From contig NZ_JACJRC010000031.1 of NCBI RefSeq assembly GCF_014697025.1, positions 1-60,408 on the forward strand: a DNA stretch of 60,408 bases, given 5' to 3'. The DNA comes from Alkalinema sp. FACHB-956 (GTDB lineage Bacteria > Cyanobacteriota > Cyanobacteriia > Leptolyngbyales > Leptolyngbyaceae). Made by a program: the position numbers and the translations under genes. The notes under the pieces were generated by a model that was not told the origin of the DNA, did not search any database, and saw only the letters and a list, made by a program, of their open reading frames with translations. Below are positions 21,072 to 30,196 of this stretch, piece after piece (the stretch's first letter is position 1; every line of letters begins with the position of its first letter).

Positions 21072-22628
21072 TTACAAGCTGTCATCCAACTTTAAGCCCT
21101 TGGCAATTCGTCCCAGTTCTGCCTTTTCGTCGATCGCAATGCGGCTGGGGGAACCGCTGATAATACGCTCGAAATTGCGGAAGGAATCCTTGATTTCTGG
21201 CCCTTGGGCACTGATGGTGTACTCCCGGATGCCCTTGTCGTGCCAGGAGCCCCGCATCTTGAAGACGTTGAGCGCTCGCGACATCTCACCCCGAATTTCC
21301 ACATACTGCAACATGATGATCGTGTCGGTGATGGTGGAAATGTGGGAATCCGTAATCGAGTGGGAACCCATGAACTGGTCGGTGGTGTTGGTGAAGAAGC
21401 CGGTAATTTCTTCCTGCTTGGCAAAGCCTGTCACCCCAATCACAAACTGCCGGAAGGCATTATTGCTCACGCCCCGCGCCAAGGCGGAGAGGGAATCGAT
21501 CGCAATGCGAGTGGGCTTGAATTCCGCAATTTCCGACTTAATGATTTGCAGGTGGTCTTCTAAGCCTGCCGATTCTGGGTAGGCACAGATAATTTTGAGC
21601 AGCCCCTGTTGTTCCAGGTCTTCAAAGTCAATGCCCCAGGAATAGGCATTGCGGGACAGTTGGGCGCGGGATTCTTCGTAGGCAAATAAAATAGCCCGTT
21701 CCCCTTGCATACAGCCTTCCTGGAGGAACTTGCTGACCAAGAGGGTTTTTCCGGTACCTGTGGCCCCCGTTGCCAGGATGATCGAGTCCTTGAAAAAGCC
21801 CCCGCCGCACATTTCGTCCAAGGTTTTGACCCCGGAGGAGACGCGGGCATTGGACGATCGCTGGGTAAGCCGCATTGCGCCCAAGGGAAAGATGTTGATG
21901 CCCTGGTCGGTAATGGTGAAGGGGTACTCGCCCTTCATATGGGTGGTGCCGCGCAATTTGAGGATTTCCATGGTGCGCCGTCGGCGCTCACCCTCTAGGA
22001 CGTTGCGCACAATTACAACGTTGTCGGACACAAATTCCTCAACGCCAAACCGGGCCACGGGGCCGTACTCTTCGGTACGCTCGGTGGTAATCACGGTGGT
22101 TACCCCAATCTGCTTCAGCCGAGAGACAAGGCGCAGAATTTCGCGGCGTACCACGGAGGCGGAGTCGTACTGCTGGAACAGTGCCGTCACGGAATCGATC
22201 GACACCCGTTTGGCTTTGTACTTGCGAATGGCGTACTGAATTCGTTCAATCAAGGCGGAAAAATCGAAATTTCCCACCACTTCCTGCCCTTCAGGGTCGG
22301 GCGAGGCATCCAGAATGAACAATTTACCTTCATCAATCAGTCTTTGGAGATCCCATCCAAAGCTCACCGCGTTTTTGATGATGTCCGCTGTTGATTCTTC
22401 AAAGGTGACAAAAATGCCTGCTTCGTCGAATTGGGTGATGCCATTGTAAAGAAATTGAACGGCAAAAAGGGTTTTTCCGGTTCCTGACGTGCCGCTTACC
22501 AAGCTGGTGCGACCGACTGGAAACCCGCCATGACTAATATCATCGAAGCCCTCAATCATGGTGCGAATTTTTTGCACCCCGACTAGTTCCGAGCGACTCC
22601 GTAGTTCAGATTGCTTGTTGGCATCCAT
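21072..22628 (-). CDS. kaiC: Circadian clock protein KaiC
   Basis: A 518-residue, double-RecA-domain clock ATPase of standard length. The N-terminal CI domain has Walker A GTSGTGKT at 46-53 and the catalytic pair in VTFEES. The C-terminal CII domain has GATGTGKT near 288-295. The phosphorylation pair is intact in SITDSHISTITD: counting from the C-terminus places it at Ser431 and Thr432, the same numbers as in Synechococcus elongatus, so the phosphorylation cycle should work. The C-terminal tail that KaiA binds (after NFERIISGSP) is present. It follows kaiB by 115 bases in the same direction and is probably cotranscribed with it. Confidence 0.98.
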   Translation of the reverse strand: MDANKQSELRSRSELVGVQKIRTMIEGFDDISHGGFPVGRTSLVSGTSGTGKTLFAVQFLYNGITQFDEAGIFVTFEESTADIIKNAVSFGWDLQRLIDEGKLFILDASPDPEGQEVVGNFDFSALIERIQYAIRKYKAKRVSIDSVTALFQQYDSASVVRREILRLVSRLKQIGVTTVITTERTEEYGPVARFGVEEFVSDNVVIVRNVLEGERRRRTMEILKLRGTTHMKGEYPFTITDQGINIFPLGAMRLTQRSSNARVSSGVKTLDEMCGGGFFKDSIILATGATGTGKTLLVSKFLQEGCMQGERAILFAYEESRAQLSRNAYSWGIDFEDLEQQGLLKIICAYPESAGLEDHLQIIKSEIAEFKPTRIAIDSLSALARGVSNNAFRQFVIGVTGFAKQEEITGFFTNTTDQFMGSHSITDSHISTITDTIIMLQYVEIRGEMSRALNVFKMRGSWHDKGIREYTISAQGPEIKDSFRNFERIISGSPSRIAIDEKAELGRIAKGLKLDDSL

Positions 22629-22743: not shown

Positions 22744-23088
22744 CTAAGGTTCTGGGGTGGGAGGCTGATCCTGCCATGCGTCATTTTTTTCATCCTGGAG
22801 CTCACTGTACAGCAGGTCAAGGCCAATCAGAACGCGTTCCCGATCGGACAGGTCACCAATGATTTTTCGCACCGGAGGCGGCAATAATTTAGCCAGGGTG
22901 GGGGTGGCTAGAATTTTATCTTCTTCGGCCAATTGGGGGTTCTTGAGAACATCAATGACCTTAAGGGCGTAGACACCTTGAAATTCTTCTTCCAGGATGT
23001 TATTGAGCGTTTTGAGCGCCCGAATGGAGTTCGGTGTATTCCCAGCTACATAAAGCTTGAGAACGTAGGTTTTTCGAGTTGCTTGCAT
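22744..23088 (-). CDS. kaiB: Circadian clock protein KaiB
   Basis: A 114-residue protein from ATG 23088 ([20 protein letters not shown]), matching the family start; an in-frame ATG at 23115 is less likely. KaiB binds phosphorylated KaiC at dusk after switching to a thioredoxin-like fold and captures KaiA. Conserved blocks are [20 protein letters not shown] and [20 protein letters not shown]. The C-terminal tail is acidic and slightly longer than the S. elongatus protein. A 447-base gap to kaiA suggests that kaiBC has its own promoter, as in the model species. Confidence 0.97.
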
Positions 23089-23535
23089 AGGACTTACCAC
23101 TAGGACATACCACAATGGAGCACAGCATGGAGCACAGCGCAGACGTCGGTTGGAATGACTAGAAAAACGCTGCGGAGACTGTCAGTAACCGAGTTGATTA
23201 CCAAGGAGCTATCCCTTGCACGGTAGATCACTCGGGGGGATCACGGATAACAGCCGGTGCATGAAATAGAATGAGTGGTGGGTGACTGACTCCAAACAAA
23301 TGACTCAGAACAACCGTTATGCTATCGGCTGATTTACCAGATCGCGCTGATTCACAGATAATTTACAGAATCGATCGTAACGAATGAGGCCCTTGGGTGC
23401 AAAGGAATGGTTGCAAACCATCGTCTGACGGCAATCTCTGCACTGCAATAGGCACGAAAAATATGCACAGAGTTGCAACAAGAGCTTCCCCAGCCTCAGG
23501 TGCCAGATTCACAGGTGCCATTCTCAGACAAAATC
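23089..23535. promoter_or_regulatory. kaiA-kaiB intergenic region, expected kaiBC promoter
   Basis: A 447-base gap in a same-strand cluster. No canonical -35/-10 pair was found by eye. Small direct repeats occur near kaiB (GGAGCACAGC at about 23116 and 23128) and near kaiA (CAGGTGCCA, about 23495-23520). The promoter assignment is inferred from cluster organisation. Confidence 0.35.
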
Positions 23536-24468
23536 CTAGGAATCCGCTGATTCTCGCGGGATAGAACGACGGTACATTTCGCAGAGATGGGCCAGGGTAT
23601 CAATCAGCGTTAAGCGGTAGTCTAAAACGACGTCCTCATTTCTCCCTTCTAATTTTAACTGCTTCGCAAATTCGTCCATAATCTCCATATGGATTTCTAC
23701 CACCTTTGAGACTGGGATATCTGCGAGGAAGGCGATATCCACATAGGCATCAATCTTTTGATTGAGGGTTGCGCCATCTGCAAAGTAGCCCACGATGATC
23801 TCTCGATAACTTTTCTTCAACTCTTGTAAGAAGTCATGTTGTTCATTGGCGGGGAGATTGCGTAAGAAGTTGCGAGGACTCCGCTTGTAGTACACCCCCA
23901 AGTAGCCCAACCGTTCCTTGAGCTTGTCAGTCAGTCGCCGCTGTTGCAGCATTAAAAAGTTTTGAGTGGTGAGATCTGTGGTGAGGTCGAGATCGGCAGT
24001 GGGCGTTGTCGGCAAACGGCAGGAAGGAGAGAGGGTCAGGAATTCCGCGATCGCACGATTAATTTCATCGCTCAGATAGTCCAAATGGGTTTCCGAGAGA
24101 CGAATCTCAGCGGTGTGATAGAGAAACGTCAGATTTGCATCACTGGGATCGAGGGATTGTGCCTCTGGAATTGACTCGTCCGTATCACTGTGGGGTTCCA
24201 GGATCACAGTCGGTAGCAGCGTGCCATGGTCATGGAGCCAACTGATGAGATTGGCCAAGGAAGGGCCCGTGTGCAGCACTAAACAATCAATTTGTTGCCG
24301 ATCTGCTTCAATGGCATAGAAGAACTCGGACTGGGATTTGGGCGTTATTAAGATATATCGATCTGGATCCAGCAGTTTTTTAGCGGTAGCCAAAATCGCT
24401 GGAGATGCGCCAAAAATACAAATGAGTAAGGTTGGCGAACTGGAAGATGTAGAAGAAAAGGAAATCAC
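23536..24468 (-). CDS. kaiA: Circadian clock protein KaiA
   Basis: A 310-residue, full-length KaiA. The N-terminal part (about 1-145) is the pseudo-receiver domain; the C-terminal part (about 185-305) is the helical dimer domain that stimulates KaiC autophosphorylation. Characteristic C-terminal blocks are YFADGATLNQKIDAYVDIAF, EIHMEIMDEFAKQLKLEGRN and DYRLTLIDTLAHLCEMYRRS. The N-terminus is serine rich before LLICIFGASPAILATAKKLL. It is the first gene of the cluster and diverges from a hybrid histidine kinase across 685 bases. A 15-bp duplication lies just upstream of the start. Confidence 0.96.
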   Translation of the reverse strand: MISFSSTSSSSPTLLICIFGASPAILATAKKLLDPDRYILITPKSQSEFFYAIEADRQQIDCLVLHTGPSLANLISWLHDHGTLLPTVILEPHSDTDESIPEAQSLDPSDANLTFLYHTAEIRLSETHLDYLSDEINRAIAEFLTLSPSCRLPTTPTADLDLTTDLTTQNFLMLQQRRLTDKLKERLGYLGVYYKRSPRNFLRNLPANEQHDFLQELKKSYREIIVGYFADGATLNQKIDAYVDIAFLADIPVSKVVEIHMEIMDEFAKQLKLEGRNEDVVLDYRLTLIDTLAHLCEMYRRSIPRESADS

Positions 24469-24494
24469 AGTGGGAATTAAAAAAGATATTTAAA

Positions 24495-24524
24495 TTGGCG
24501 GAGTCAGTATTGGCGGAGTCAGCG
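24495..24524. repeat. Tandem repeat, 15 bp x 2, upstream of kaiA
   Basis: TTGGCGGAGTCAG at 24495-24507 and 24510-24522, period 15, about 27-55 bases before the kaiA start codon, inside the expected mRNA leader. Confidence 0.85.
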
Positions 24525-24683
24525 CGGCGGAATTCCCTGGAATCCCCACAGAACTTCACAACCTCTCTGATGGGGGCGGAGTTCTGGCCGCTGGGGGCAA
24601 GATCGAGGGAGAACGAAAAACTTGTAGGAATGAATGAAACTTTAATTGACTTAAGCTTTTCTTAAGATTGAAAGCGTGAATTC

Positions 24684-24712
24684 ATTATAACGGGACAACC
24701 CTTTTCGTTGAA
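24684..24712 (-). promoter_or_regulatory. Candidate kaiA promoter
   Basis: A consensus -10 TATAAT on the minus strand (24684-24689) with a weak -35 TTCAAC (24707-24712) and a 17-base spacer, 215 bases upstream of kaiA. The -35 match is poor, so this is tentative. Confidence 0.25.
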
Positions 24713-24937
24713 TCCAGAGTCATAATTGGGGCATGGCCTTGAATTGTATCGCAGGGCCGCAACGGTCGTGGGTCTCCTGGGATTCATTGCTTTCTAGCAT
24801 AAATAGAGTCAGTCGAGAGTGTCCTGGAATTCACCGTGTCTTCGATCGAGTTGAATTAAGTGAAATAAATAGTGATTTCTGAGATCGGTTGACTTATCTG
24901 AGTCTCTTTGACGAAGGGACTTCGCTTGTAGGCTAAT

Positions 24938-25081
24938 GTTGCATTTTGCACCCTTTGCATTTTGCACCCTTTGTATTCTGAACCTTTTGCATTCTGTACC
25001 CTTTGCATTCTGTACCCTTTGTATTCTGTACCCTTTGCATTCTGTACCCTTTGCATTCTGTACCCTTTGCATTTTGCCCCT
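24938..25081. repeat. Tandem repeat, 16 bp x 9
   Basis: Nine consecutive units of consensus TTTGCATTCTGTACCC with one to five differences in some copies. The array ends 72 bases before the start codon of the hybrid histidine kinase. It is not a CRISPR: there are no unique spacers. Confidence 0.97.
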
Positions 25082-25153
25082 CGGATCATCCTTAAATCTT
25101 CAATTGCTTGAACTTGCTCGAACTTGCCCGAATGACACCTGTGCTAGAGTTAT

Positions 25154-28075
25154 ATGCTCAACGAAGCGCCGCCGCCACAATTTGGGAGATCCCCTGCAAC
25201 GGGGATTTCCTGTTCCGCAACGCTATCCCTGAGGTCGGCGCTCCTGCAATGTCACCAACGGCGCAGCGATCAAATTGTAATTGTCGATGCCCAGTCTCAA
25301 GTGATTGGGACGCTGTTTCTCCATCAGTTATTGCCAAAGTTACTCGATCGTAGCCTTGAACTAGAGCAATCCTTGGAGGATGTGAAGTCCTTGTGGAGCC
25401 TAGCTGAAGCCCCGGTCACTCAACCCTTGGCGCTAGATCAGATGCCATTTCTCCTTGAGTTGCTGAATTACTTGCCCTTGCCAGTTCTTCTGTGTAGTCA
25501 ACATTCGAGCCAATGGCATTCTAATTTTCAATGGCGAAAATTAGTTGAAGATCTTGAAGAACCTATGGCGTTACTGCAGTGGGTAAGTCGTTTCTTGCAG
25601 GGGGAGAAGATGGTCTCCAGCCCGCCCCTCTTGGACGATCCCACCCTGGGAGGAGACACTTGGGATCACCGGGGATCAGTGCCGCCGGTTCCGCCGGGCG
25701 CGCAGACGGGGATGAGAGCCATACCGAGCGCACTCTACCGTTGTAGCTGCAAGACGGGGCAGGAGGTTGTCTTGCAATTTACCCCGGTTCCCTTGAGTAC
25801 AGCCCTGCTAGCGGTTACAGCCAATCCACGAGGAGCCACAGGTGTGTGGCGCGCCGATCGCCCCCCAGCAGAGGGAGATCGGCCCGTAGCGCCTGAAATA
25901 TTGCTGGATCCCACCTTGATGGCTTCCCAAATTGCGACCCTGGAACGCCAAACTGAAGGGCGGGGGACGGGATTGAGCGAAAGTTGGGACTTGATTTGGG
26001 TGCAAGATGTCACAGAACAACACCAACTGGCGCGGGAATTAGCAGCAAAAAATGCTGATTTAATCCAATTGAATCGACTGAAGGATGACTTTTTGGCCTG
26101 CATGAGCCATGAGTTACGCACACCCCTTACGGCGGTTTTAGGCCTATCCAGCCTGATGAAAGAGGAGTCAATCGGTGCGCTGAACGATCGGCAACGCCGT
26201 TACATTCAACTGATTCATCGCAGTGGTAAACACTTGATGCATCTGGTCAATGACATTCTCGATCTGACGCGCATGGAAGCGGGACAGGTGGAATTAACTT
26301 GTCAAACGATTCGGATCGCTGAGATTTGTCAAATTGCTTTTGACCAAGCACAACAGATGCGCTGGCCTCCAGTGGACGAATCGCCACCCCAGGGGAGTCA
26401 GGCCACTCCCATTCTCCTCGATCCTTCACAGGTTTCGGAACTCGCCCTGGAAGTGGAACCGGGTCTGGAAACGGTGGTCGCCGATCCCAATCGGCTGAAA
26501 CAGATGTTGGTGCACCTATTGTCCAATGCCCTCAAGTTCACAGAACCGGAGGGCAAGGTGGGGATTAAGGTGGCCAACTGGGAAGGCTGGATTGCCTTTA
26601 CCGTCTGGGATACCGGCATTGGGATTCCTGCCGACAAACAGCATTTGATCTTTCAGAAATTTCAACAGTTAGAAAGCCCCTTGACGCGGCAGTTTGAAGG
26701 AACGGGGTTGGGGCTGGTTCTGACCCAACGGCTCGCTCGGCTCCATGGGGGGGATGTCACGTTTATCTCTCGGGAAAATAAGGGCAGTCAGTTTACCCTG
26801 CTACTGCCACCCACTCCACCGGTATTTACGTCTGTGGTGGCGATCGACGATCCCCCCGATCGGGGCGTGCGTGCAAGCAATCGGCTCGTTCTGGTGGTGG
26901 AAGTCAGTTTGCGAAACCTGGAGGATGTCAGTGACCAATTGATGGCATTGGACTATCGCGTCATTGTGGCACGATCGGGCACCGAAGCCCTAGAAAAAGC
27001 GCGCCAGCTCCAACCCTACGCGATTTTGCTCAATCCTTTTTTGCCGATGCTATCGGGATGGGATGTGTTGACCCTGCTCAAATCCGATCCCAAAACCTGT
27101 CAAATCCCGGTGGTGGTTATGGCAACCCAAGCAGCACAGCACCAAGCTTACTGCAACCAAGCGGATGGTTTTTTAGGGATTCCCATTCGCCATCGCTTAC
27201 TGGCCCATACGTTAGAACAGTTAACGCAAACTCCCGTAGAGTTATCCACCCCAACCTCAAACGCATCTCCCTCAATCCTTTGCCTATCCCCGGAGGCCGA
27301 TGGGGCTGGGATCGAATGGAGTCATCTGCTTCACAGCCATAACTATCGGGTGATTGAAGCAACGGATTTAGAACAGGCAGAATTGCTGGCGCGGGTCTGG
27401 CAACCGAAGGGGGTGTTACTCAGTGGTGAGGTTTCGGATCCGCTTACCTATCTCAATCAACTGCGCTTGCAAACCTGCTTAGCTTCATTACCGATCGTGG
27501 TTTTGGATATGGCTGTTGCTCAGGCAGCCATTCAACTCAAAGAGCTGACCATCTTTCCTTGTTTAATGAACCAAACGCGGTTGCCCCTAACTCCTGAAGT
27601 GGCCCGATCTCTGTTACAAGTGATTGAAGTTGCGGTCAACTCTGGCACCAGACAACCCTTTTTATTGGCTGTAGATGGCGCGATTTTTAGCCATCGGGTG
27701 GGCCACGAGACCAAGTTACTGGCCCAGGGCTTGGATTGGCTGAATGCCTTAATGCAGTACATTCATACCGCAGGGCTGAGGGGGGCGATCGTCCCGGAGA
27801 GTTCAGTCTTGTTGCGCAAGCTGCAAACCCAAACCGTGAATCAGTTGCTGGTGTATTGGCACGAAGGCATTTCAGCGGAAACCATTAAGCTAGGCCTGCA
27901 ACAGGTCAATCAGATCAACCCCCATTTGCCCATTTTGCTGGTTGATTACCACACGAAATCTGGACGGCGACGGGGATCCTTTTCAGCAATGCCTAATGTA
28001 CAAGTAACCTCACCCAATTTACCGATGGAAAGCTTACTAGATCAGGTGCGGCAGCAATTGGGGTTGCCATCCTGA
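25154..28075 (+). CDS. Hybrid histidine kinase with degenerate receiver domains, divergent from kaiA
   Basis: A 973-residue cytoplasmic protein. Residues about 25-70 (QCHQRRSDQIVIVDAQSQVI, GTLFLHQLLPKLL) resemble half a CBS module. A PAS-like region follows (about 100-290). The HisKA domain has the H-box FLACMSHELRTPL with phosphoacceptor His319, and the ATPase domain shows LLSNALKFTEPEG, DTGIGIP and GTGLGL, so the kinase looks active. After it come receiver-like segments (about 576-690, 700-805 and 820-970). In the first the acidic pair is altered (LVVEVS), the phospho-aspartate is Asn627 (AILLNPFLPMLSG) and the usual KP lysine is replaced (GIPI). It is thus a pseudo-receiver, an architecture like CikA. 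Being next to kaiABC suggests, but does not prove, a clock input or output role. Confidence 0.88.
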   Translation: MLNEAPPPQFGRSPATGISCSATLSLRSALLQCHQRRSDQIVIVDAQSQVIGTLFLHQLLPKLLDRSLELEQSLEDVKSLWSLAEAPVTQPLALDQMPFLLELLNYLPLPVLLCSQHSSQWHSNFQWRKLVEDLEEPMALLQWVSRFLQGEKMVSSPPLLDDPTLGGDTWDHRGSVPPVPPGAQTGMRAIPSALYRCSCKTGQEVVLQFTPVPLSTALLAVTANPRGATGVWRADRPPAEGDRPVAPEILLDPTLMASQIATLERQTEGRGTGLSESWDLIWVQDVTEQHQLARELAAKNADLIQLNRLKDDFLACMSHELRTPLTAVLGLSSLMKEESIGALNDRQRRYIQLIHRSGKHLMHLVNDILDLTRMEAGQVELTCQTIRIAEICQIAFDQAQQMRWPPVDESPPQGSQATPILLDPSQVSELALEVEPGLETVVADPNRLKQMLVHLLSNALKFTEPEGKVGIKVANWEGWIAFTVWDTGIGIPADKQHLIFQKFQQLESPLTRQFEGTGLGLVLTQRLARLHGGDVTFISRENKGSQFTLLLPPTPPVFTSVVAIDDPPDRGVRASNRLVLVVEVSLRNLEDVSDQLMALDYRVIVARSGTEALEKARQLQPYAILLNPFLPMLSGWDVLTLLKSDPKTCQIPVVVMATQAAQHQAYCNQADGFLGIPIRHRLLAHTLEQLTQTPVELSTPTSNASPSILCLSPEADGAGIEWSHLLHSHNYRVIEATDLEQAELLARVWQPKGVLLSGEVSDPLTYLNQLRLQTCLASLPIVVLDMAVAQAAIQLKELTIFPCLMNQTRLPLTPEVARSLLQVIEVAVNSGTRQPFLLAVDGAIFSHRVGHETKLLAQGLDWLNALMQYIHTAGLRGAIVPESSVLLRKLQTQTVNQLLVYWHEGISAETIKLGLQQVNQINPHLPILLVDYHTKSGRRRGSFSAMPNVQVTSPNLPMESLLDQVRQQLGLPS

Positions 28076-28173: not shown

Positions 28174-29355
28174 TTAATTGGGCAATGCGCTTAGAGCCGT
28201 AACGGACTCAATCCAGTTGGCAACTAATAAGCGCGATCGCTGCCCCTGGGGATCAATCCTATAAATGGCGCTCCCGTTAGTAAATACGATCGTGCCATCC
28301 GGGGCTAGGTCAAAGGCCAAAACCCCTTCTGCAATGACTTCCGGATTGCCGACACCTTGCTGGGGTTGCCTTACCAGTTGCCAGGTTCGCGGCACCAACG
28401 AAGGGGCATCCGCATCCCCAAAGTTTTTATCCTTCAACTGTTCGGGCGTAATCCATTCCCCCCAAGCTTTGAGCATTTTGGGTTCCACTTTTTGATGGGT
28501 GCCCGCTCGCATCAGAGGCTTGCCCGTGTACATTTGCGTAAAAAAGTTCAGCCACTGAAAAATTGCGTACAGCAAGCGCACGGGGATCAAGAGAATTTCT
28601 TTGAGCACTTTGAGGGGATTGAAGCCACTATGGCGAGCTTTGTAGGGCCGACGGATGTAGTAGAGCAGGCCATCGACTCCGATCTGTGGGGACAGTAAAT
28701 CCGCCTTAGGATCCGCTGCTAGGGTCGTAATATCCCCTTGCTTAAAATCGAGCTTTTCGATCGTAAACGGGGCTCGATCGCCCACATAGCCATCTGCCGT
28801 TCGCCCTAAACCTGCGGACTGATAGACCAATGCTTTGCCTGCGCCCGGAATCCACCGAGGAGCCAAATCGAGGGAGTCGCCTTCAGTAATGTCGCGGGGG
28901 CGGTTGCCATCAATGGCCATGGTGGCGATGTTGGAAATGCCCGTTGCATAGGTCGTTGTGCAAGCAATCAGACCCAACTCCGGCTGATAATCCAAATGCC
29001 CCACCCGAAAATCTGCATTGTGAAACAGGCGCAATTCTCGATCGCAACTGGGATCGAAGCGGAAAATTCCCCCCACATCTCCCGCTTCCAGGGCATAGAG
29101 CAAGGTTTGATCCTGTCCCTGGCACAGACTGGTAATCGCGATCGGGATCGTGGCCTCCGGTTGATTTTTCATCTGAGTCACCGCCGCTGGAGGCATCATC
29201 ATTTCCATAATGCCGCGATTTTTCCAGGCTTTTTGGCGCTGTATTTGTAGGCTTCTGACCTGAACGGTTTGGCCAAATTCGCTTTCTATTTCCTTAGGCT
29301 GGGCATTGTGCGTGGTTAGAAAGAGTTTGCCTTGTGTCAGATAAGCAATCTGCAT
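28174..29355 (-). CDS. Hypothetical protein, probable beta-propeller (TolB/WD40-like)
   Basis: A 393-residue protein without a signal peptide, opening with MQIAYLTQGKLFLTTHNAQ. Repeated short strand patterns of the PD40/TolB kind are visible (LGLIACTTTYATGISNIATM, LAPRWIPGAGKALVYQSAG, LAFDLAPDGTIVFTNGSAIY), consistent with a propeller of several blades. A hydrophobic stretch around residues 250-270 (EILLIPVRLLYAIFQWLNFF) may touch the membrane. No enzymatic motif was recognised. It converges with the kinase gene (98 bases apart). Confidence 0.7.
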   Translation of the reverse strand: MQIAYLTQGKLFLTTHNAQPKEIESEFGQTVQVRSLQIQRQKAWKNRGIMEMMMPPAAVTQMKNQPEATIPIAITSLCQGQDQTLLYALEAGDVGGIFRFDPSCDRELRLFHNADFRVGHLDYQPELGLIACTTTYATGISNIATMAIDGNRPRDITEGDSLDLAPRWIPGAGKALVYQSAGLGRTADGYVGDRAPFTIEKLDFKQGDITTLAADPKADLLSPQIGVDGLLYYIRRPYKARHSGFNPLKVLKEILLIPVRLLYAIFQWLNFFTQMYTGKPLMRAGTHQKVEPKMLKAWGEWITPEQLKDKNFGDADAPSLVPRTWQLVRQPQQGVGNPEVIAEGVLAFDLAPDGTIVFTNGSAIYRIDPQGQRSRLLVANWIESVTALSALPN

Positions 29356-29647: not shown

Positions 29648-30196
29648 ATGAAATCAGGTGTATTACAAACATCAAGTCTTTTTCTGATGTCCGTCCTGGA
29701 AGGGTTGGTGGATGGAATTTTGATTGTGCAACCCCAAGGAGACTTAGTCTATGCGAATCTCCCAGCCCAGCGAATTTGCCAAGCCCTGACTAACCAAGTC
29801 GGTGCAATCCCCAAAGAAGTTCGATCGCTCTGTGATTCGTTGCAAGAAAGTCGTGACTGGTTTGGCAATCAACCGCTTGTACTGGAGTCCGAAATCATGA
29901 TTGCCAATCACGATCGCTATCGCCTGCGGGTGCAGTGGTTGCAATTGGATACGATCGCCGATCCCTGCTTCTTAGTCCGGTTAGAGGATCAGCAACAATC
30001 CTGGCAAAGCCTCGCATTCTCCGAGGCCCAACGCTATGGATTAACCCCTCGGGAAGCGGAAGTTTGGCAGCTCCGGCGGGCAAATCTTTCCCGCAAGGAA
30101 ATTGCTGAACGGCTGCACATCACGATCGACACCGTGAAAAAGCATCTCTGTAATATTCAGATGAAACGCCAAATGGAAGAGTTAGAAGCCTGCTAA
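29648..30196 (+). CDS. LuxR-type transcriptional regulator with PAS-like sensor
   Basis: A 182-residue protein from ATG 29648. Residues about 10-115 look like a PAS domain (LEGLVDGILIVQPQGDLVYA, NLPAQRICQAL). Residues about 128-175 form a LuxR/GerE helix-turn-helix: YGLTPREAEVWQLRR and RKEIAERLHITIDTVKKHL. There is no receiver domain, so it is not a classic response regulator; it probably senses a ligand or partner through the PAS part. It stands alone between two minus-strand genes, and its targets are unknown. Confidence 0.85.
   Translation: MKSGVLQTSSLFLMSVLEGLVDGILIVQPQGDLVYANLPAQRICQALTNQVGAIPKEVRSLCDSLQESRDWFGNQPLVLESEIMIANHDRYRLRVQWLQLDTIADPCFLVRLEDQQQSWQSLAFSEAQRYGLTPREAEVWQLRRANLSRKEIAERLHITIDTVKKHLCNIQMKRQMEELEAC

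Follow-up and report, generated by a model that had tools for sequence, protein, structure and literature searches.

The described systems closest to the gene reported here are CikA, SasA, KaiA and ShkA. CikA has a GAF domain (E 8.5e-22) and a HisKA-HATPase core followed by one pseudo-receiver (PDB 2j48 and 5jyu). According to a review (PMC12632262), this pseudo-receiver represses autophosphorylation and binds both quinones and KaiB, the latter via an alpha1-beta2-alpha2 surface, and the pseudo-receiver of ShkA gates its own kinase. SasA is a histidine kinase tied to the Kai clock, with a KaiB-like N-terminus and no receiver, while KaiA carries an N-terminal receiver-type domain that lacks a phospho-acceptor. 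Here we describe a further hybrid histidine kinase, encoded divergently from kaiA in a 60,408-nucleotide stretch of DNA from Alkalinema sp. FACHB-956 (contig NZ_JACJRC010000031.1, positions 1 to 60,408; hereafter the window). The reading we favour, with a probability of roughly one half, is that it belongs to an old cyanobacterial family of kai-locus kinases, composed of a sensor, a DHp/ATPase core and two or three pseudo-receivers, that acts in a CikA-like manner.

Linkage of the kinase to kaiA

In the window, the kinase gene and kaiA are arranged back to back:

25154 to 28075, forward strand: the window's member of the kaiA-adjacent family, a hybrid histidine kinase with a length of 973 amino acids (open reading frame, Pfam, homologues, tree)
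24469 to 25153, no strand: divergent intergenic region between kaiA and the kinase, 685 base pairs (bp)
23536 to 24468, reverse strand: kaiA, full length, with the N-terminal pseudo-receiver domain KaiA_N (Pfam)

An in-frame TAG at 25145 leaves the kinase frame with a single possible start (ATG, GTG or TTG). An earlier reading of the window, made without database searches (the sequence-only reading), had assigned the interval 24469–28075 to the kinase; the gene does lie there, but it occupies 25154–28075, and the interval begins at the start codon of kaiA.

Is the pairing with kaiA peculiar to this strain? Among 386 genomes of the phylum, kaiA (PF07688) is present in 159 and a match to the kinase (E<=1e-80) in 90. 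By listed positions, 80 of these 90 matches are divergent from kaiA and within 8 kb of it on the same contig; locus L138 of genome G091, whose kaiA is not among the listed positions, is also a divergent pair when read directly, which brings the count to 81 of 90. Ten weaker divergent kinases (L161, L162, L166, L173–L177, L181 and L187) were located by a search beside kaiA, and their adjacency is therefore given by construction. Together these make 91 pairs among 112 examined kaiA loci, in 21 of 26 families, a recurrence that goes beyond chance. The gap between the two genes ranges from 97 to 3065 bp (median 505 bp), and an open reading frame of at least 120 amino acids intervenes in one pair of the 91. 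Among the named loci, where generic kinases dominate the listed matches, the best 7 of 80 all have the pair; they come from Lyngbya, Anabaena catenula, Nodularia, Chlorogloeopsis fritschii, Nostoc, Chrysosporum bergii and Okeania. The adjacency noticed by the sequence-only reading is thus not confined to one strain, and a strain-specific arrangement is ruled out. The kaiA-kinase adjacency is old.

The other 47 of the 159 kaiA genomes fall outside the examined set: 33 belong to family f19, 2 to f25, and 12 are others. Seven of these 12 have the kinase on one contig and kaiA on another, and one (G326) has the kinase with no kaiA position listed. Beyond the kinase, the most widely shared gene encodes a PMT_2 glycosyltransferase, retained in 42 of the 91 loci and in 8 families. 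FtsH was rejected as the conserved gene at this place, since it occurs in only 2 loci.

Architecture and relation to CikA and SasA

The window kinase has the order CBS-PAS-HisKA-HATPase, followed by three receiver folds. Pfam itself reports HisKA and HATPase_c, with the receiver slightly under its cut-off. All domains lie on the forward strand:

25199 to 25357, forward strand: CBS1, residues 16–68 (profile E 6.6e-12)
25448 to 26023, forward strand: PAS-like region, residues 99–290, weakly conserved in this copy (profiles)
26066 to 26284, forward strand: HisKA/DHp, residues 305–377, with the phospho-acceptor H319 at 26108–26110
26471 to 26815, forward strand: HATPase_c, residues 440–554, with N458, D486, G488 and G490 intact
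26885 to 27223, forward strand: pseudo-receiver 1, residues 578–690, with E583, N627 at the phospho-site and I676 at the Lys place
27269 to 27637, forward strand: pseudo-receiver 2, residues 706–828, with Q741, W749 and S757 and no acidic pair
27653 to 28063, forward strand: pseudo-receiver 3, residues 834–970 (predicted fold)

At the N-terminus, the family profile scan finds CBS1 as the sole CBS domain of the window copy, CBS2 having been lost, and the PAS-like region matches profiles PASa (E 3e-5, residues 99–150) and PASb (E 0.006). The AlphaFold2 model of a relative, L069, has a CBS pair at residues 1–130, a block with a predicted local distance difference test (pLDDT) score of 81–97, and then a PAS-like domain; the mean pLDDT of the whole model is 74. 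For residues 570–973 of the window kinase, AlphaFold2 with 60 sequences predicts three alternating alpha/beta domains at a mean pLDDT of 88. (The alignments used for folding and profiles were subsets of 60, 62 and 60 rows, named A2, A3 and A4.) In a Foldseek search with the receiver model, PleD and DivK lead and the FrzS receiver also matches; the TM-score to DivK is at most 0.89 over one domain.

Most of what had been read from the letters about the protein holds. The kinase core has its H319 and an intact ATP-site motif (N458 and D486-x-G488-x-G490), the first receiver has Asn at position 627 and Ile in place of the lysine, the CBS-like N-terminus is borne out by CBS1, and the two further receiver-like modules, like the receiver fold in general, appear in the structure prediction. 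The acidic pair of receiver 1, described there as lacking, is lost at one position (V584); E583 remains, so that one acidic residue is left at the E583-V584 place. No intact receiver was found among the receiver modules of the window kinase, which distinguishes it from ShkA-type hybrid kinases; the likeness to ShkA lies in a pseudo-receiver and a kinase in one chain, which could in principle gate the kinase.

How does this kinase relate to those of the known clock? A midpoint-rooted FastTree phylogeny was built from 111 kinase cores, including 18 strong and 14 weak kaiA-linked members, 30 CikA proteins (out of 99 matches) and, as outgroups, nine further kinases from the scan of named loci. The 32 kaiA-linked kinases form one clade (support 0.997), which holds nothing else but a duplicate of the window sequence; the outgroup kinases, including the cyanobacterial L200 and L208, fall outside it. 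CikA forms a separate clade (support 1.0), and SasA is distant. A GAF domain was absent from the window kinase and from the ten relatives scanned, several of which have CBS instead. The suggestion that the kinase differs from CikA in domain type agrees with the separate clade, the CBS and PAS domains and the lack of GAF in the eleven members scanned. CikA shares with this family the HisKA-HATPase core and the pseudo-receiver that follows it. It differs in having GAF and a single pseudo-receiver; members of the family instead carry a CBS pair and PAS together with two or three pseudo-receivers, and it is the family, not CikA, that adjoins kaiA. With SasA the likeness is that of a histidine kinase linked to the Kai clock; no KaiB-like domain was found in the window kinase by Pfam scan. 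KaiA, too, is a kai-locus protein whose receiver-type domain has no phospho-acceptor, but a relationship between that domain and receiver 1 was rejected, the hhalign comparison being non-significant.

Across the kinase core and the start of the pseudo-receiver, the window kinase is 39% identical to CikA (201 bits); against the SasA of its own genome it scores 84 bits. The CikA of G036, an S. elongatus relative, was recognised by its pseudo-receiver (match to PDB 2j48, E 1.5e-59). At E<=1e-90 CikA is found in 99 of 386 genomes and in 76 of the 100 genomes that bear the kaiA-linked kinase; the two are therefore not alternatives. The genome of the window has all three kinases, with CikA at L320 and SasA at L268. 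Besides KaiB and SasA, the same genome has a further KaiB domain (L270, G000:C1:476632-476868) in an open frame of 306 amino acids.

The kaiA-linked kinase family is apparently undescribed. No description was found in open-access PMC full text, a scope that leaves subscription papers and supplements outside and in which some search terms were perhaps too strict. In the available portion of PMC8113500, on kaiA evolution, the term 'histidine kinase' does not occur, and the portions of PMC11372060 and PMC12084410 at hand hold no description of it. In Anabaena 7120 kaiA is alr2884 (part of PMC8064755), and all2883 is tabulated among genes predicted to be under CRP control (part of PMC2633013); from its numbering next to alr2884, all2883 is probably the Anabaena homologue of the kaiA-linked kinase. 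Npun_R2903 of Nostoc punctiforme is called a 'CikA-like' sensor/receiver kinase with diel-cycling expression (part of PMC12691664). To equate it with the kaiA-linked kinase would be a doubtful guess, since that part of the source has it as GAF-containing, unlike the family, and its place beside kaiA is likewise a guess.

The remaining features around the kinase are as follows:

22744 to 23115, reverse strand: kaiB (Pfam and NCBIfam)
21072 to 22628, reverse strand: kaiC (Pfam and NCBIfam)
24939 to 25073: array of a 16-bp tandem repeat (8.4 copies) inside the 685-bp gap, immediately upstream of the kinase gene (repeat scan)

Short tandem arrays occur across the window (32 rows in the repeat scan). 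Downstream of the kinase, a protein of 393 amino acids (28174–29355) has no Pfam match and a weak match to a TolB propeller. A gene for a PAS-LuxR-type regulator follows at 29648–30196; it has no match above 40 bits in the 120 other regions read.

Conserved residues and loss of the ATP site

Conservation was counted in an alignment of 97 members, namely the 100 kinase-bearing loci minus L120, which runs into a contig end, L151, whose frame is split, and L155, whose match contains stops; a stricter alignment of 89 rows, A1, also leaves out eight weak members. The phospho-acceptor H319 is present in all 97, N458 in 91 and D486 in 90. Position 627 of receiver 1 is Asn in 84 members, Asp in 5, Ser in 3, Arg in 3 and Gln in 1, with one gap. 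In receiver 2, Q741 and W749 are invariant and E735 is found in 96 of 97; the acceptor place has Asp in 77 members and Ser in the window copy (S757), and the acidic pair is gone. The receivers are pseudo-receivers in character. At least 90 residues stand at the place of receiver 3 in 68 members. CBS1 and CBS2 are each present in 95, CBS2 being absent from the window copy and L187. The sequence-only reading had put its stress on receiver 1, which is only partly right. N627 is indeed there, but the invariant Q741 and W749 sit in receiver 2, and L166 and L173 have a truncated receiver 1 or none; in L162 it gives no profile match.

In eight of the 97 members, from five families (f4, f16, f18, f22 and f23), at least one of N458, D486 and G488 has been lost, yet all eight keep H319, Q741 and W749. 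A Glu after the His, with T, S or N four places on, is kept in six of these eight pseudokinases. Both f4 and f23 have one intact and one decayed copy; thus, assuming vertical descent, the ATP site has been lost more than once. One of the five families is of the Thermosynechococcus type: a decayed copy of the kaiA-linked kinase is found in G089, whose KaiB is identical to PDB 2qke over 108 residues and which we accordingly take to be of that type. The ratio of nonsynonymous to synonymous divergence (dN/dS) for the G089 pseudokinase is 0.16 against each of two close relatives (L175/L176 and L175/L177): this pseudokinase lineage is under purifying selection. The ratio of divergence in receiver 2 to that in the ATPase domain is 0.84 in the decayed group, where receiver 2 is the less diverged, and 3.2, 2.2 and 1.3 in the intact groups (family f7, other strong members and six divergent ones, respectively). 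In f7, at matched ATPase-domain distance, the REC1 distance is 0.26 against 0.40 (25 versus 323 pairs, non-independent), which is only suggestive of a stronger receiver constraint in this family.

Which other clock proteins carry pseudo-receivers? KaiA is shorter than 250 amino acids, too short for a pseudo-receiver, in 44 of the 91 pairs (42 in f7 and 2 in f3) and long in 47. The 45 short-KaiA loci examined have the kinase alongside in 44 (f7 42/42, f3 2/2, f17 0/1). CikA was read in 18 of the 30 f7 matches, and in all 18 it ends no more than 13 residues past the kinase core; two f1 CikA proteins (G185 and G289), which with the 18 make up the set L353–L372, likewise do so, and the CikA pseudo-receiver is therefore missing in these 18 f7 and two f1 genomes. 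In G062 (f15), the CikA frame also stops after the kinase core. In the Nostoc-type genomes of f7, the kaiA-linked kinase is the only clock-locus protein known to us that has pseudo-receivers.

A possible role in the clock and the alternatives

Docking and gating of the CikA kind would, by analogy, be the best mechanism, we infer. The pseudo-receivers would take no phosphoryl group but dock a Kai protein, with KaiB as the first candidate, and would gate DHp. DHp might in turn phosphorylate a separate response regulator, for which RpaA is the first candidate, or, likelier as the conserved core activity, dephosphorylate it. The kinase specificity residues give no guidance on RpaA as the target, since many hybrid kinases share the motif. 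The CBS and PAS domains would sense input, and the CBS pair may read a metabolic ligand. Since the ATP site has been lost while the His and receiver 2 were kept, docking, a DHp-based phosphatase or phosphotransfer activity, or both, would seem to be the indispensable part. E735, Q741 and W749 lie in the predicted beta2-alpha2 of receiver 2 (AlphaFold2; no surface was computed on coordinates), a position that is part of the fold matching the KaiB-binding surface of the CikA pseudo-receiver.

Several observations weigh against this proposal. No such kinase stands alongside kaiA in 21 of the examined loci, among them the S. elongatus-like G036, which has no kinase match genome-wide at E<=1e-80; a Kai clock can therefore manage without it. 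Conversely, in nine of the 100 genomes that bear the kinase the stretch read holds no pair: seven have the genes on separate contigs (G097 cut by a contig end), and the others are G326 and G255, whose locus L109 has the kinase but no kaiA match at E<=1e-3. One short-KaiA locus, L167 (f17, KaiA of 132 amino acids), has no kinase alongside. Although receiver 1 matches a profile of 18 CikA pseudo-receivers (hhalign E 1e-16), it also matches ordinary receivers (PleD E 5e-17), and the KaiA pseudo-receiver profile has no significant hhalign match to receiver 1, 2 or 3; the CikA likeness of receiver 1 is thus generic. The Glu after the His is lost in two of the eight pseudokinases. T-x-x-D nucleotide contacts, usual in CBS domains, are not seen in the CBS consensus of the family. 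Finally, conservation of the neighbourhood alone is no proof, because PMT_2 is also kept and gene order is slow to change.

This last point leads to the alternative that the kinase is a mere passenger, an ordinary sensory hybrid kinase of a pathway unrelated to timing, which would stay next to kaiA because the two share divergent promoter space or because rearrangement is slow. We regard this as rather unlikely. The retention of PMT_2 in nearly half of the pairs fits it, as do the nine kinase-bearing genomes without a pair, which include the 7 of the 90 matches whose kaiA lies on a different contig (in one case because the contig ends), and the 120 HisKA matches in the window's genome, which make kinases common as neighbours. 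Nevertheless, PMT_2 linkage reaches 8 families whereas the kaiA pair reaches 21. The pair also persists in members without ATP-site residues or without receiver 1, though these were found by looking beside kaiA, and kaiA is present in 99 of 100 kinase-bearing genomes, a figure confounded by phylogeny and by the ten kinases located beside kaiA. It is more doubtful still that the kinase is autoregulatory, its output being a response regulator that acts on the kai promoters within the intergenic region common to both genes, in a transcriptional feedback loop without Kai docking. The divergent orientation and shared upstream region of 91 loci would suit such a loop, but members without an ATP site speak against a purely kinase-based output; among the gene clusters most widely shared between families beyond the kinase, PMT_2 is the sole one identified, which tells neither for nor against a linked regulator.

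Descent from a known clock kinase is far less probable. A CikA orthologue, or CikA relocated beside kaiA, would account for the core identity and for the pseudo-receiver after the core, but it is rejected as very improbable in view of the separate clades, the presence of CikA elsewhere in the window's genome and the missing GAF. A SasA derivative minus its KaiB-like domain is likewise rejected and is the remotest of these explanations: both kinases are linked to the clock, but the score against the genome's own SasA is low, the two lie far apart in the tree and no KaiB-like domain is present.

The proposal of a CikA-like kai-locus family can be extended, tentatively and at odds that we hold to be low, to an ancestral kinase-scaffold, the third of the Kai clock. 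Its selected core would be the DHp His and pseudo-receiver 2 rather than kinase activity, it would have become a pseudokinase beside kaiA in several lineages, and in the Nostoc-type lineages, where KaiA and CikA lack their pseudo-receivers, it would have assumed the role of these domains, namely to dock Kai proteins and to sense input. The kaiA-linked kinase makes a good candidate for a clock part so far missing. Most of what is known about the cyanobacterial clock comes from S. elongatus. If the proposal is true, a clock component would have been missed because the model species is without the gene, as its relative G036 is, and the question arises of how Nostoc-type clocks receive input without pseudo-receivers in KaiA and CikA.

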